5,176 nucleotides of DNA, from assembly GCA_003697105.1 (NCBI GenBank), contig RFFQ01000092.1:1-5176 (forward strand), given 5' to 3'. Shown here in pieces: positions 504 through 5,176 of the stretch (positions are counted from its first letter, which is position 1; every line of letters starts with the position of its first letter). Under the pieces are notes generated by a model, which had not been told where the DNA came from, did not search any database, and saw nothing but the letters and a program-made list of their open reading frames with translations. The translations under genes and the position numbers were made by a program. The stretch is from Gemmatimonadota bacterium. GTDB lineage: Bacteria; 4572-55; J002.

Positions 504-3500
504 ATGGCTATGCTCAATTTGTTACCTCATTTTATTGTTGATCGGTTCAAGTGTAATCAGAATCAGGGTCAATTTCAGGCGGTGGGAATGTTTGTGGATA
601 TTTCGGGTTTCACCTCCATGACCGAAATTTTAATGCAAGGTGGGGAGGAAGGGGCAGAAATTCTCTCCAATATTCTCAATTTGGTATTTGAACCTACCGT
701 GAACGCGGTGTACCGGGGTGGTGGTTTTATCTCCAAATATGCCGGTGATGCGTTTACTGCCTTCTTTCCGGTTACCCCAGACCAAACCCCAACTTCATTG
801 ACTCTCTCCACACTCCTCTGCGCAGAAAAAGTTCAACATATTTTTCAGACTTTTGGATTTCAAGAGACGAAGTTCGGTAATTTTAAACTTGAGGTAAAAA
901 TCGGTCTTTCGTTCGGCGATTGTGATTGGGCAATTGTCGGTGATGAAAGTAAAGCATTTTTCTTTCGGGGGGAGTTGATTCATGGGATTACCGCTTCTGA
1001 AGATCGGGCAACAGAGGGGATGGTTGTTTTTGATGAAAAGATGATCTCCTATATCGATAAAGAGATTGTTTCTTTTGAGCCGTTATCATCTGGTTTTTAT
1101 GTGTTTCGATCTCTGAACCGGAAATTGCTGAAACATTACCAACTTCCTAAAGTTCTACCACGTTCCCGATTGAGTAAGTCGGTTGCGCGTCAATTTTTGC
1201 CTCTTTCTGTCATTGATTATAACAAGGCGGGTGAGTTCCGAAATGTAGCATCCGTATTTATCTCATTTGAAGGGCTTTCGACACTAGAAGAACTCCATTT
1301 GTGGGTATCAGCGGTGTTGGAGGGTGTCAATAAATTCTCCGGTTATTTCCCGGATTTGGAATATTCGGACAAAGGCTGGGTGATCTTGTGTACGTTTGGG
1401 GCGCCGATTGCCCATGAGAATAATATCAGCCGCGCCTTAGAGTTTATCCTCGATCTACAGGAAAGAGTCCGGGCGATCAAAACGTTGGAACCGCTACGAT
1501 TTCGGGTGGGAATCACTTATGGCAAGGTTTATGCTGGAATCATCGGTGGTAAAAAGCGCTGTGAGTATGCGACCATTGGTGATGTCGTCAATTTGGCGGC
1601 GCGGTTTATGATGAAAGCCGATTTTGGCCAGATTTGGGTCTCTGAGCGGGTTTCTGATGCGGTAAAGCACTATTTTGAGATCGAATACCTAGATCGCTAC
1701 CGCTTTAAGGGGAAATCGGAGCCTATCCCTGTTTACCGGTTAAAAGGGAAGCGGAGTTCTGTTCAGGTAACATTTGCCGGTCGGTTTGTTGGGCAACGCT
1801 CTCAATTGCAGAAGGCAAAAAAAGTACTGCGAGCGCTATCGGAGCATCAGTTTGGCGGTGCTTTATACATCTATGGGGAAGCCGGGATGGGCAAATCTCG
1901 GTTTATTCACGAGCTACGCGAGCAGTTTCAAGATTATCAGTGGGCGTATTTGCGATGTGATAACATGCTCCAGAAGTCGTTTAACCCCTTTACGAGCTAT
2001 TTAGCCGAACTGTTTGATCTGAACCAACAAAGCCGCCGTCAAAATCAAGCTCGTTTTAAGACCATCTACCGGGATTTGATCCAATCGGCGAGTGACCATC
2101 CTGAAATTGTCACCGAATTGCACCGGTTAGAGTCCCTGATTGAAGGCTTTTTAGGTATTCATGACCCTAAGGCGGATTCCCTATACAATCAACTGGATAC
2201 GAAACTCCGGTACGTGAACACACTTTATGCACTCAAAGAGATTTTTAAGGCGTTGAGCCTGAAAGCACCATTAGCTCTTGTAGTAGAAGACATCAAGTGG
2301 ATTGACCCGGATTCGGTGCGAGTCCTCCAAACACTGTGTCGTAACATTGATGATTTTCCGATATTGTTAATTTTAACCAGCCGTTATAACGATGACCAAT
2401 CGAAACCCTCACTGAACCTAGATTGTCAAGAAGATCAGATTGAATTAACACCCCTTTCCGGCGAAGAGATTGAAACGTACGCGAAATCCCTCTTAAATGG
2501 GGATATTTCATCGAAACTGGCGCAAAATCTAAAGCAAAATACACAGGGAAATCCGTTGTTTATCGAACAAAATATTCTTTATTTTCGAGAGTCAAAGGCC
2601 ATTATTCCGCATACGGTGACCGATGAGACGGGACGCGATTATACGATGTGGGACCTGGTTAAAGATGAGGTTTCCGTGCCGTCTTCGATTAGCGATTTGC
2701 TGATTGCCCGAATCGACCGTTTATCGAGTGAATTAAAGGAGATGACACAAGCGGCTTCTGTTGTCGGGCGTGAGTTTGATTATGTTTTGTTACTTTCCGT
2801 ATTGCAACGAATTAACAAAGAGCTTGAGATGACACGCTTTAAAACCTATTTGAATATAGGTCAGCAAGAGAATATTTGGCGGACGGTAGGTCATGTGAAG
2901 TATGCCTTTACCCATTCTATGATGCAGAGCGCGGTGTATCAAATGCAGTTGAAACAGCAAGTGCGGGAGTTACACCGGATGGTAGCGGAAGCCATTGAAC
3001 TGTTTTATCTCAATGATAAACAAGCGTATGCTGATTTGGCGTTTCATTATGACCGGGCAGAAAACCGCGAAAAAGCTATGGAGTATCTCTTCAAAGCGGC
3101 AGAAACGGCTAAACATAACTATGAAAATGAGAAAGCATTGGAGTTTTATTCGCGTTTGATCGAATACCATGAGGCAGAATATGACGGAGCAACGGATAAT
3201 ATCCCAGGGGTGACGGACTCTGAGGATGCTCATCAGGATTCAGACCGATCTTACATCAATTTATTGACTGAGAAAGGTAAACTGTTTCAAAAGATGGGGC
3301 GCTGGGAGGAAGCGGACCAGATTCTAAAACGGGCATGTGATCTGGCAGTTAAAAGTGGAAATCAACGTCGAATGGGTAAAACCTATCTCAATTACGGGAT
3401 GATCAAGTTGCATAAAGGTGATTACGATAATGCCCAAAAGTACTTGAAACTGGCGCAGGAGAGTTCTCAAAAAGCAAATGATGATTATAATCTGGTTACC

Positions 3501-4460
3501 ATTATCGGCAATATTGGTGTACTCCATGCCTATCAAGGGAAAATGGAAGAAGCTATCCAGTATTTTAACCAACAATTAGAGCTTGCCGAGAAAACCCATA
3601 AAAAGGAAGGCATTTCGTTTGCCGTCGGTAATCTGGGCATCATTTATGACCAATTGGGACAATTTGAACAGGCGATGTCCTTTTATCAGCGAAAGTTAGA
3701 CCTTGCTCAGGAAATGAACGATAAAACTCAGATTGTTAATGTTACTATGAATATCGGTGCGGCGTACCTCACCCAAGGACAGTACGGCTCCGCAATGGAA
3801 TATTTGGAACGATCCCTTGAATTAGCTCAAACGATCGGTGACAAACAGGGTATTGTGGAAGCGTTACTGAATATTGGTCTGATTGAGTACGAATTGGGCA
3901 AGTTCAGTTTAGCTATGAAACGACTCGGGGATTGTCTTCGGTTAACGGATGAACTCGGTGCACGTTTGCACAAAGCGTTTGCGTTGACAACATTAGGGCG
4001 AACGTACAAAGATACGCGTTCGTATCCGCAAGCAGAATTACATCTAAATCAAGCCATTGATTTATGGAAGAATTTGGGCGCACGCTATTATATGGCACAA
4101 GCACTGGTTGAAAAAGCCGAGTTGCTCTTTATTCAAAATCAGTATGACGAAGCTACGACCTTAGTTCAAGATGGATTGGAACATGCCCAACAAACTGGTT
4201 ATGCGGAATATGTATTTAAGGCAAACCTACTTTACCATCGCATTCGTTATCAATTGGGGGATGTTACCGGGGCAATTTCAGCCCTGCAAGCGATGTTACA
4301 CGGTAATCTCTCAGAACAAGATCGTGCCGACCTTGCATTTGTCCTTTGGGAAATGACCGGCGAAGAGGATTTTCGTGAAACTGCTACCGATATTTATCGG
4401 AAATTGTATGACGTTACTCCAAAGTCGTATTACAAAAAGCGCCTAAAACAATTAACTTGA
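504..4460 (+). CDS. Soluble adenylyl cyclase-like protein: tandem class III cyclase domains, STAND/AAA ATPase, TPR array
   Basis: This 1318-residue protein has no signal peptide or membrane segment, so it is probably a cytosolic signalling protein. Class III cyclases make cAMP or cGMP from the nucleoside triphosphate. Cyclase domain 1 (about 23-180) has FVDISGFT with metal-ligand D32, KYAGDAFTAF with D82, and K132, but no NxxxR motif. Domain 2 (about 244-415) has S254 at the first metal position but keeps DKG (289-291) and NLAAR (N363, R367). One composite active site is therefore expected, as in C1-C2 of mammalian soluble cyclase ADCY10. The ATPase (about 425-640) has Walker A GEAGMGKS (458-465), Walker B LVVED (E595, D596) with WID (599-601), and TSR (625-627). 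GNPLFIEQ (682-689) and a helical arm (about 725-840) follow, as in COG3899-type predicted ATPases. The C-terminus is TPR, with repeat glycines at 925, 965, 1005, 1045, 1085, 1125 and 1165, after an acidic linker (about 893-916). Purine-contact positions look altered (D284, A356), so cyclase activity and product are uncertain. The ATPase and TPR parts probably sense or scaffold a partner. The domain assignment is secure; the ligand and output are unknown. Confidence 0.93.
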   Translation: MAMLNLLPHFIVDRFKCNQNQGQFQAVGMFVDISGFTSMTEILMQGGEEGAEILSNILNLVFEPTVNAVYRGGGFISKYAGDAFTAFFPVTPDQTPTSLTLSTLLCAEKVQHIFQTFGFQETKFGNFKLEVKIGLSFGDCDWAIVGDESKAFFFRGELIHGITASEDRATEGMVVFDEKMISYIDKEIVSFEPLSSGFYVFRSLNRKLLKHYQLPKVLPRSRLSKSVARQFLPLSVIDYNKAGEFRNVASVFISFEGLSTLEELHLWVSAVLEGVNKFSGYFPDLEYSDKGWVILCTFGAPIAHENNISRALEFILDLQERVRAIKTLEPLRFRVGITYGKVYAGIIGGKKRCEYATIGDVVNLAARFMMKADFGQIWVSERVSDAVKHYFEIEYLDRYRFKGKSEPIPVYRLKGKRSSVQVTFAGRFVGQRSQLQKAKKVLRALSEHQFGGALYIYGEAGMGKSRFIHELREQFQDYQWAYLRCDNMLQKSFNPFTSYLAELFDLNQQSRRQNQARFKTIYRDLIQSASDHPEIVTELHRLESLIEGFLGIHDPKADSLYNQLDTKLRYVNTLYALKEIFKALSLKAPLALVVEDIKWIDPDSVRVLQTLCRNIDDFPILLILTSRYNDDQSKPSLNLDCQEDQIELTPLSGEEIETYAKSLLNGDISSKLAQNLKQNTQGNPLFIEQNILYFRESKAIIPHTVTDETGRDYTMWDLVKDEVSVPSSISDLLIARIDRLSSELKEMTQAASVVGREFDYVLLLSVLQRINKELEMTRFKTYLNIGQQENIWRTVGHVKYAFTHSMMQSAVYQMQLKQQVRELHRMVAEAIELFYLNDKQAYADLAFHYDRAENREKAMEYLFKAAETAKHNYENEKALEFYSRLIEYHEAEYDGATDNIPGVTDSEDAHQDSDRSYINLLTEKGKLFQKMGRWEEADQILKRACDLAVKSGNQRRMGKTYLNYGMIKLHKGDYDNAQKYLKLAQESSQKANDDYNLVTIIGNIGVLHAYQGKMEEAIQYFNQQLELAEKTHKKEGISFAVGNLGIIYDQLGQFEQAMSFYQRKLDLAQEMNDKTQIVNVTMNIGAAYLTQGQYGSAMEYLERSLELAQTIGDKQGIVEALLNIGLIEYELGKFSLAMKRLGDCLRLTDELGARLHKAFALTTLGRTYKDTRSYPQAELHLNQAIDLWKNLGARYYMAQALVEKAELLFIQNQYDEATTLVQDGLEHAQQTGYAEYVFKANLLYHRIRYQLGDVTGAISALQAMLHGNLSEQDRADLAFVLWEMTGEEDFRETATDIYRKLYDVTPKSYYKKRLKQLT
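3261..4246 (+). repeat. TPR array coding segment of the cyclase protein, strict 40-residue register
   Basis: This covers roughly residues 920-1247 of the cyclase. Landmark positions recur every 40 residues: G925, G965, G1005, G1045, G1085, G1125, G1165, then A1205 and H1245. Examples are NYG, NIG, NLG, NIG and NIG at the start of helix A, with Gly-x-(Phe/Tyr/Met)-x-x-Ala before helix B. Forty rather than 34 residues per unit matches the longer TPR subclass of LGN/Rapsyn-like and bacterial regulator arrays, which bind peptides or partner proteins in a superhelical groove. A more degenerate helical pair precedes the array at about 842-890. Confidence 0.85.
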
Positions 4461-4478: not shown

Positions 4479-4487
4479 AAGGAGAGG
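4479..4487 (+). promoter_or_regulatory. Strong Shine-Dalgarno sequence of the repeat-protein gene
   Basis: AAGGAGAGG, with AAGGAG at 4479-4484, ends 7 nt before the ATG at 4492. It lies inside the 31-bp gap after the cyclase stop codon. It is a better match to the anti-Shine-Dalgarno sequence than the AAGGA before the cyclase. This suggests more translation per transcript for the exported protein than for the cyclase. No terminator hairpin or clear promoter fits in the gap. Confidence 0.8.
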
Positions 4488-4491
4488 TACT

Positions 4492-4560
4492 ATGCACCGT
4501 ACATATTTATTTCTCGGTGTTGTGTGTGGTTTTCTGATATATGTTGGTTCGGTTTTCGCC
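4492..4560 (+). other. Sec signal peptide coding segment
   Basis: This segment encodes residues 1-23. A short basic N-terminus (His2, Arg3) precedes a hydrophobic stretch rich in Leu, Val, Gly, Phe and Ile, then Gly-Ser-Val-Phe-Ala before Gln-Asp. Val at -3 and Ala at -1 satisfy the signal peptidase I rule. The protein is therefore expected in the periplasm, at the cell surface or outside the cell. A final location would depend on a C-terminal domain that lies beyond the window. Confidence 0.82.
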
Positions 4561-5176
4561 CAAGATACCGACTTTCGCTTAATGGCGCCCGCGGGGGCGG
4601 GTCGCGCTGAAGGGGATAGTGTGTTGCTGCAGGTAAATCTGGACGGAGTGACGATTCCATTAGGGCTATCTCCGAATCGAGCTTTTCGCAGTTTCCAAAT
4701 TGGTTCCAGCGATGCCGTAGGTCGTGTGGGCGGTTTACCATATTTTTCTGTAGGGGAAGCCGGAGAAACTCGGATCAATTTATTTAATGATGGCAGCCGT
4801 GCGTTCCGTAGTTTTCAAATTGGTTCTAGCGACGCAGTGGGCCGTACAGACCCGGATACATTGTTGATGGTGAGTGATGAGGGGGTTACGATCCCATTGG
4901 GCCCGCAACTGTCGGGTCGGGCGTTTCGTAGTTTTCAAATCGGTTCAAGTGATGCGGTCGGTCGTGCCGGTACTGTGCCGTATCTACGAGTAGGAGAAGA
5001 AGGTACCCAGATTAATTTACTCTCTGACCCGATTCGAGCATTCCGTAGTTTTCAAATTGGCTCTAGCGACGCGGTGGGTCGTACAGAACCGGATACGTTG
5101 TTTATGGTTAGCGATGAAGGCGTCACGATTCCGCTTGGTCCGCAACTGTCAGGTCGGGCATTTCGCAGTTTTCAAA
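4492..5176 (+). CDS. Secreted tandem-repeat protein of unknown function (3' end outside window)
   Basis: The first 228 codons are present, with no stop before the window edge. Residues 1-23 form a Sec signal peptide: His-Arg near the start, a hydrophobic core (about 5-19) and a likely signal peptidase I site after Val-Phe-Ala (21-23), leaving Gln24 as the mature N-terminus. Cys12 lies in the core but is preceded by Gly-Val-Val, which is not a lipobox, so a lipoprotein is unlikely. After a short linker (24-38) the protein consists of 40-residue repeats (39-78, 79-118, 119-158, 159-197, 198 onward). Each ends in RAFRSFQIGSSDAVGR and begins with a variable half containing an LxV..(D/E)EG..I.L-like pattern that suggests paired beta-strands. 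There are no cysteines in the mature part seen. The family is not recognised. A beta-propeller, beta-solenoid or surface/matrix repeat protein are possibilities inferred from repeat length and strand-like pattern only. It probably shares a transcript with the cyclase gene upstream. Confidence 0.88.
   Translation, partial: MHRTYLFLGVVCGFLIYVGSVFAQDTDFRLMAPAGAGRAEGDSVLLQVNLDGVTIPLGLSPNRAFRSFQIGSSDAVGRVGGLPYFSVGEAGETRINLFNDGSRAFRSFQIGSSDAVGRTDPDTLLMVSDEGVTIPLGPQLSGRAFRSFQIGSSDAVGRAGTVPYLRVGEEGTQINLLSDPIRAFRSFQIGSSDAVGRTEPDTLFMVSDEGVTIPLGPQLSGRAFRSFQ
4606..5176 (+). repeat. In-frame tandem repeat array, 117-120 bp units, two alternating types
   Basis: The units are A1 4606-4725, B1 4726-4845, A2 4846-4965, B2 4966-5082 (one codon shorter) and A3 5083 to the edge. 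The last 16 codons of each complete unit (4678-4725, 4798-4845, 4918-4965, 5035-5082) encode an identical peptide, and a fifth copy starts at 5155. A units carry GVTIPLG in the variable half. B units carry (L/V)PY followed by (R/Q)INL. The higher-order period is therefore about 79-80 residues. The array continues past the window, so copy number is unknown. Confidence 0.93.

Follow-up and report, generated by a model that had tools for sequence, protein, structure and literature searches.

Described relatives

Trimeric autotransporter adhesins such as BpaC possess heads built from YadA head repeats (PF05658), 14-aa layers with the strand-turn pattern SFxIG, which in BpaC are near-identical within the gene and are connected lengthwise, down the fibre, by chains of hydrogen bonds (PMC9543794). 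Related secreted fibres, the mosaic adhesive trimers (MATs) of Bdellovibrio, are reported to bind surface glycans, and the available text of PMC10769870 describes for them a beta-rich domain of ~130 aa after the signal peptide, binding parts at the C-terminal tips and, in an S74 subset, a self-cleaving chaperone with the signature SDxxxK; tandem units of the kind discussed below are not mentioned in that text. Soluble adenylyl cyclase (ADCY10) combines twin cyclase domains with an ATPase and TPRs.

Here we analyze a locus in which a gene with the ADCY10 architecture is followed by the beginning of a gene for a repeat protein that is probably secreted. We propose, with a probability of about 0.7, that the product of the latter is the N-terminal part of an S74-type surface fibre that is secreted and probably trimeric. 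Judging from its sequence and those of its relatives, it most likely represents a variant of the S74-type fibre proteins that has yet to be characterised, and not a categorically new system. It shares the SFxIG pattern with the YadA layers, but its units are ~40 aa long, contain two additional predicted strands and are missed by the YadA model. Its paralogues carry the SDxxxK chaperone of the MAT subset, whereas the ~130-aa N-terminal domain of the MATs is absent from the window protein, in which the repeats start at residue 63 and which is not matched by the NCBIfam model of the MAT N-terminus (NF053851). One of the Bacteroidota relatives described below (L160) scores on this model, below the cut-off.

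Layout of the locus

The window, i.e. the whole stretch of DNA analyzed, is a complete contig of 5,176 bases (G000:C162) from a genome of 4.18 Mb in 199 contigs that is 96.9% complete. It carries two genes, both on the + strand: the cyclase-ATPase-TPR gene (504..4460, ~1,319 codons, start ATG at 504 or 510) and, 31 bases on, the gene for the predicted secreted repeat protein (4492..5176, start ATG at 4492), inside which the contig ends after 228 codons. The ~500 bases upstream (1-500) hold no convincing gene or Rfam match. The second gene is preceded by a strong Shine-Dalgarno sequence, AAGGAGAGG (4479..4487, + strand). It opens with a predicted signal peptide, MHRTYLFLGVVCGFLIYVGSVFAQ (4492..4563), recognized by inspection from a charged start, a hydrophobic core and the end VFAQ; the paralogues start alike, with the same features, and cleavage is predicted near A23/Q24. 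A lead-in stretch, SVLLQVNLDGVTIPLGLSPN (4618..4677), which by eye is similar to the QTVFAVYNEGVRVYV of the Bacteroidota relatives, precedes the repeats.

The motif RAFRSFQIGSSDAVGR occurs in four full copies, starting at residues 63, 103, 143 and 182 (nt 4678, 4798, 4918 and 5035), and in a fifth copy cut by the contig end, of which RAFRSFQ remains (residue 222, nt 5155). Each ~40-residue unit comprises one such strand-turn motif and two more predicted strands (LFMV / GVTIPLG). The true period is two units, A-B-A'-B', of 79-80 aa: unit 1 (type A, 4678..4797), unit 2 (type B, 4798..4917), unit 3 (type A', 4918..5034) and unit 4 (type B', 5035..5154), followed by the beginning of unit 5 (5155..5176), all on the + strand. 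Spacer identity is 92% between B and B' and only 25% between copies 1 and 2 (A versus B), and by this comparison the B/B' pair is younger than the split between A and B.

Constancy of the motif and scatter of its codons

The sequence-only reading had found the 16-residue motif identical in all four complete repeats, with synonymous differences at 10 of 16 codons between the first two copies, and had counted 13 synonymous codon differences against two replacements (D120/E199, L125/F204) between residues 119-149 and 198-228; all of this was reproduced exactly. Over the six pairs of motif copies, 51 of 96 codon comparisons differ synonymously and 0 of 96 by a replacement. At the nucleotide level the four copies are at least 18 changes apart, all of them silent; as only 25% of single changes are synonymous, the probability of this outcome is ~1.9e-11 if the changes are treated as independent. 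The 10 codon differences between copies 1 and 2 compare with 10.6 expected from two independent draws from the codon usage of the genome, from which it follows that the copies are old and that their codons have been scrambled by drift. Taken together, the four copies lie slightly below saturation (51 codon differences against 63.4 expected, P=0.012). Active diversification of the codons can be rejected, since the differences are no greater than under random choice: the scatter of the codons reflects no more than saturation. The motif copies are therefore old and under strong purifying selection in every copy, which bears out both the selection postulated earlier and the statement that the repeats are neither a recent duplication nor an assembly artefact. 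The two-unit period, the gene-specific character of the motif and the reading of codon scatter as saturation had been missed.

Paralogues in the same genome

A first scan of the genome contigs and a viral scan with the window protein found no relative. A search of the same genome based on the repeats identified one gene (C48), and a search for the S74 domain identified three Peptidase_S74 genes, C48, C76 and C96. The fragment matches the C48 protein within its N-terminal repeats (BLASTP E 4e-6). A further match, in C53 (E 0.026), falls in a protein of membrane type whose end is OmpA-like; we regard it as unrelated. In all three S74 genes a signal peptide is followed by tandem units laid out as in the window gene, each gene having a motif of its own: RAPARSFAIGQGSSLNRE in two copies in C48, RDAIGEF[AMT]ILGQ[ST]NLRE in eight copies in C76 (one of them ending in RD), and RPGGGGGYQFRGRGGGGR and variants in four copies in C96. 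Each motif is followed by an LxVxxDGVxIxL-like stretch. YadA-head repeats come after the N-terminal units in C48 and C96, and all three proteins have Peptidase_S74 with SDxxxK near the end and then a coiled-coil-like tail. In the paralogue at L050 6240-8423 the corresponding place in the repeats is taken by a motif made up almost wholly of Gly and Arg (RPGGGGGYQFRGRGGGGR). Copies 1 and 2 of this motif do not differ even at the nucleotide level, so that this paralogue is partly a recent duplication.

The N-terminal motif of C48 is recognized as a YadA-head repeat, with a score reached by 0 of 5000 shuffles. For the window motif alone, scored with a PSSM from the heads of the paralogues, P=0.11, and PF05658 gives no match at E<=1, so that its assignment as a YadA head is unproven.

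Relatives in Bacteroidota

A scan of named genomes for the S74 domain yielded 79 loci. Ten of them, all Bacteroidota by title, possess units at the N-terminus with the pattern K..KGGFAVGG....K or KAARR[TS]GFVVTGRSATK, followed by LxVxxDSVRIYV and spaced by 38-43 residues. In these proteins (e.g. L093, L160, L128, L150) the ~40-aa unit has its motif and strands in the same order as in the window protein, and it likewise stands after similar lead-in strands and, there, before YadA-head or related repeats and S74. The motif core is GGFAVGG or GFVVTGR in the Bacteroidota, as against RSFQIGSSDAVGR in the window, and several of the Bacteroidota proteins add an N-terminal domain or collagen repeats. 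One of them (L150 3-4640) has collagen-like repeats and then nine KAARR[TS]GFVVTGRSATK units.

For two of the paralogues the relationship extends past the units: C48 and C96 are collinear with Bacteroidales S74 proteins, including the repeats and beyond (35% identity, E 2e-57, and 32%, E 9e-82, respectively). In hhalign comparisons all units from the source genome match the Bacteroidota units with a probability of 96% (E 2.9e-9). The four window units alone score 24.2 against 16.7 for the best of 200 column-scrambled controls (0/200 reach their score); the units of C48 and C96 also beat all controls, and those of C76 are not significant (6/200 controls reach the score). Against an HMM of the Bacteroidota units the window fragment reaches a suggestive 7.6 bits; among shuffles of the window protein, 6 of 4000 tiled ones and 2 of 4000 plain ones score higher. 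L150 and L118, the best two of the 79 S74 proteins against the fragment, match it in the repeats (E 0.011 and 0.018).

The motif had not been recognized earlier as belonging to any named family, and this stands: neither Pfam nor NCBIfam has a model for the unit, and sequence searches of Pfam, NCBIfam, PHROGs and the PDB with the fragment returned nothing meaningful. For L150, PHROGs yielded only families without a stretch passing on its own. A profile search of the PDB with the units returned designed trefoils, a surface-layer protein and similar entries through sub-threshold stretches, with none passing for the top matches; we regard these as repeat artefacts. Relatives do exist, namely the three genes of the same genome and the ten Bacteroidota S74 proteins, but they belong to no named repeat family. 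Over 386 genomes sampled across the domain, the profile of the units found only their own genome and one marginal match (E 0.007), and it found none in a class-mate genome (G001). Neither GGFAVGG nor a name for the repeat was found in open-access papers. A repeat that stands at the N-terminus of S74-type fibres in several Bacteroidota, and for which Pfam and NCBIfam hold no model, extends by these comparisons to a sparsely sampled phylum.

Uniformity within genes

Across 11 genes, motif identity within a gene is 0.79-1.00 and spacer identity 0.20-0.55; between the four genes of the source genome the values are 0.19-0.50 and 0.20-0.36, respectively. Copies 1 and 2 of the window are as divergent as units of different genes (spacers 25% against 20-36%, synonymous sites saturated), yet their motifs are 100% identical, as against 19-50% between genes. 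In the Bacteroidota, the six positions that follow the core are largely gene-specific: their identity is 0.88 within genes (mean per gene 0.75) and 0.34 between them, which 0 of 10,000 label shuffles reach. Codon differences there approximate independent choice in L093, L128 and L100, and are fewer in L150. On the sequences compared, a uniform motif with scattered codons characterises the repeat class in general.

This pattern may mean that the motif copies of one gene co-evolve as protein, without homogenisation of the DNA, so that a gene-specific "code word" stands in every layer as neighbours must match. We put this forward tentatively and, on balance, lean against it. The uniform-motif pattern would also arise if each gene had simply expanded a single unit that then stayed under purifying selection for a long time. 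Within-gene uniformity combined with randomised codons offers a clean natural way to test if the layers of a repeat have to match one another.

A putative fibre and the alternatives

The missing half of the window gene can be predicted from its paralogues, and the fold, too, is deduced from relatives. After the signal peptide, the run of ~40-residue units would be followed, as in the relatives, by YadA-head, GIGT or similar repeats, and the missing part would be expected to include a self-cleaving chaperone domain of the S74 type, through which the trimer is assembled. A role of the fibre in adhesion is probable.

The AlphaFold monomer of the window protein has a pLDDT of 41 and no usable fold; in this low-confidence model, strands recur periodically at SFQIG, L.MV and VTI. 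The N-terminus of C48 reaches a pLDDT of 57 and is confident only in its YadA-head part, with which Foldseek found nothing below E 0.37. Since the monomer model gives no usable fold, the arrangement of the units is proposed by analogy to the layered heads: most likely the motif copies stack as successive layers, packing against each other and against two other chains. A change in one copy would then be tolerated only if the others match, which would leave each gene with a single motif as its synonymous sites become random.

It had been suggested that each copy makes the same contact, either with a repetitive ligand or with neighbouring repeats in a regular fold. The regular fold agrees, by inference, with the position of the paralogue and Bacteroidota units before YadA-head and S74 trimeric-fibre modules, and for the contact the evidence leans to neighbouring layers. 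It is rather unlikely that the copies lie exposed and each bind a repetitive ligand, for instance a surface glycan or a polymer, with selection for binding keeping them alike. With three Arg, three Ser and one Asp the motif is indeed polar and charged, glycan binding is reported for the Bdellovibrio fibres, and a gene-specific motif would fit one ligand per fibre; however, the MAT binding parts described in the available text of PMC10769870 sit at C-terminal tips and not in N-terminal repeats, and the core of the unit (F-x-V/I with flanking K/R) is common across phyla, which suits a structural role.

We consider it improbable that the gene encodes a secreted beta-repeat protein built from the ~40-residue unit that has no S74 chaperone and does not form trimers. 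Such a protein would accord with the lack of a Pfam match for the fragment and with the search for S74 domains, which found three and no fourth in a genome 96.9% complete, all three in complete genes elsewhere. On the other hand, assembly breaks are common at repeats, and the three genes of this genome with the ~40-residue unit all have S74; this count is partly circular, as these genes were noticed partly via the S74 search and the outside relatives were collected by it, but C48 was found from its repeats alone. Recent duplication or gene conversion alone, with no special constraint, is very improbable and as a sole explanation is refuted by the silent changes: the likeness of the B and B' spacers and the slight deficit of synonymous differences over the four copies (51 vs 63) speak for it, and the absence of replacements among at least 18 changes, all synonymous (P ~2e-11), the saturation of copies 1 and 2 and the low identity of their spacers speak against it.

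The upstream cyclase gene

The product of the upstream gene contains two Guanylate_cyc domains, AAA_16 and TPR according to Pfam, i.e. a twin class III cyclase, an ATPase and a TPR array, and matches adenylate cyclase type 10 in the PDB (E 1.5e-26). It thus resembles ADCY10 in its domains, but it is bacterial and paired with a gene for an exported, probably fibre-forming protein, and its cyclase activity is predicted. C48 and C76 are each located downstream of a cyclase-AAA-TPR gene 41-44% identical to that of the window; C96 is not preceded by a cyclase paralogue, and C161, a fourth cyclase paralogue, lacks a fibre neighbour of this kind. The pairing of a cyclase with a surface-protein gene is recurrent. 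We suggest that the upstream gene is probably a co-transcribed signalling partner of the fibre gene, and that there may be a link between cyclic-nucleotide signalling and the production of the fibre.

The four paralogous genes with the ADCY10 architecture lie at 504-4460 of the window, L013 3701-7453, L049 6412-10335 (- strand) and L051 2554-6456. The class-mate genome G001 has nine such cyclase genes, several of them followed by genes for exported proteins (with FG-GAP-like repeats, TonB-dependent receptor-like, or with a T9SS-type tail). The two cyclase domains of the window protein (residues ~25-420) look complementary by eye: the first retains the metal-binding Asp pattern (FVDISGFT, YAGDAF) and the second retains the NLAAR pattern.
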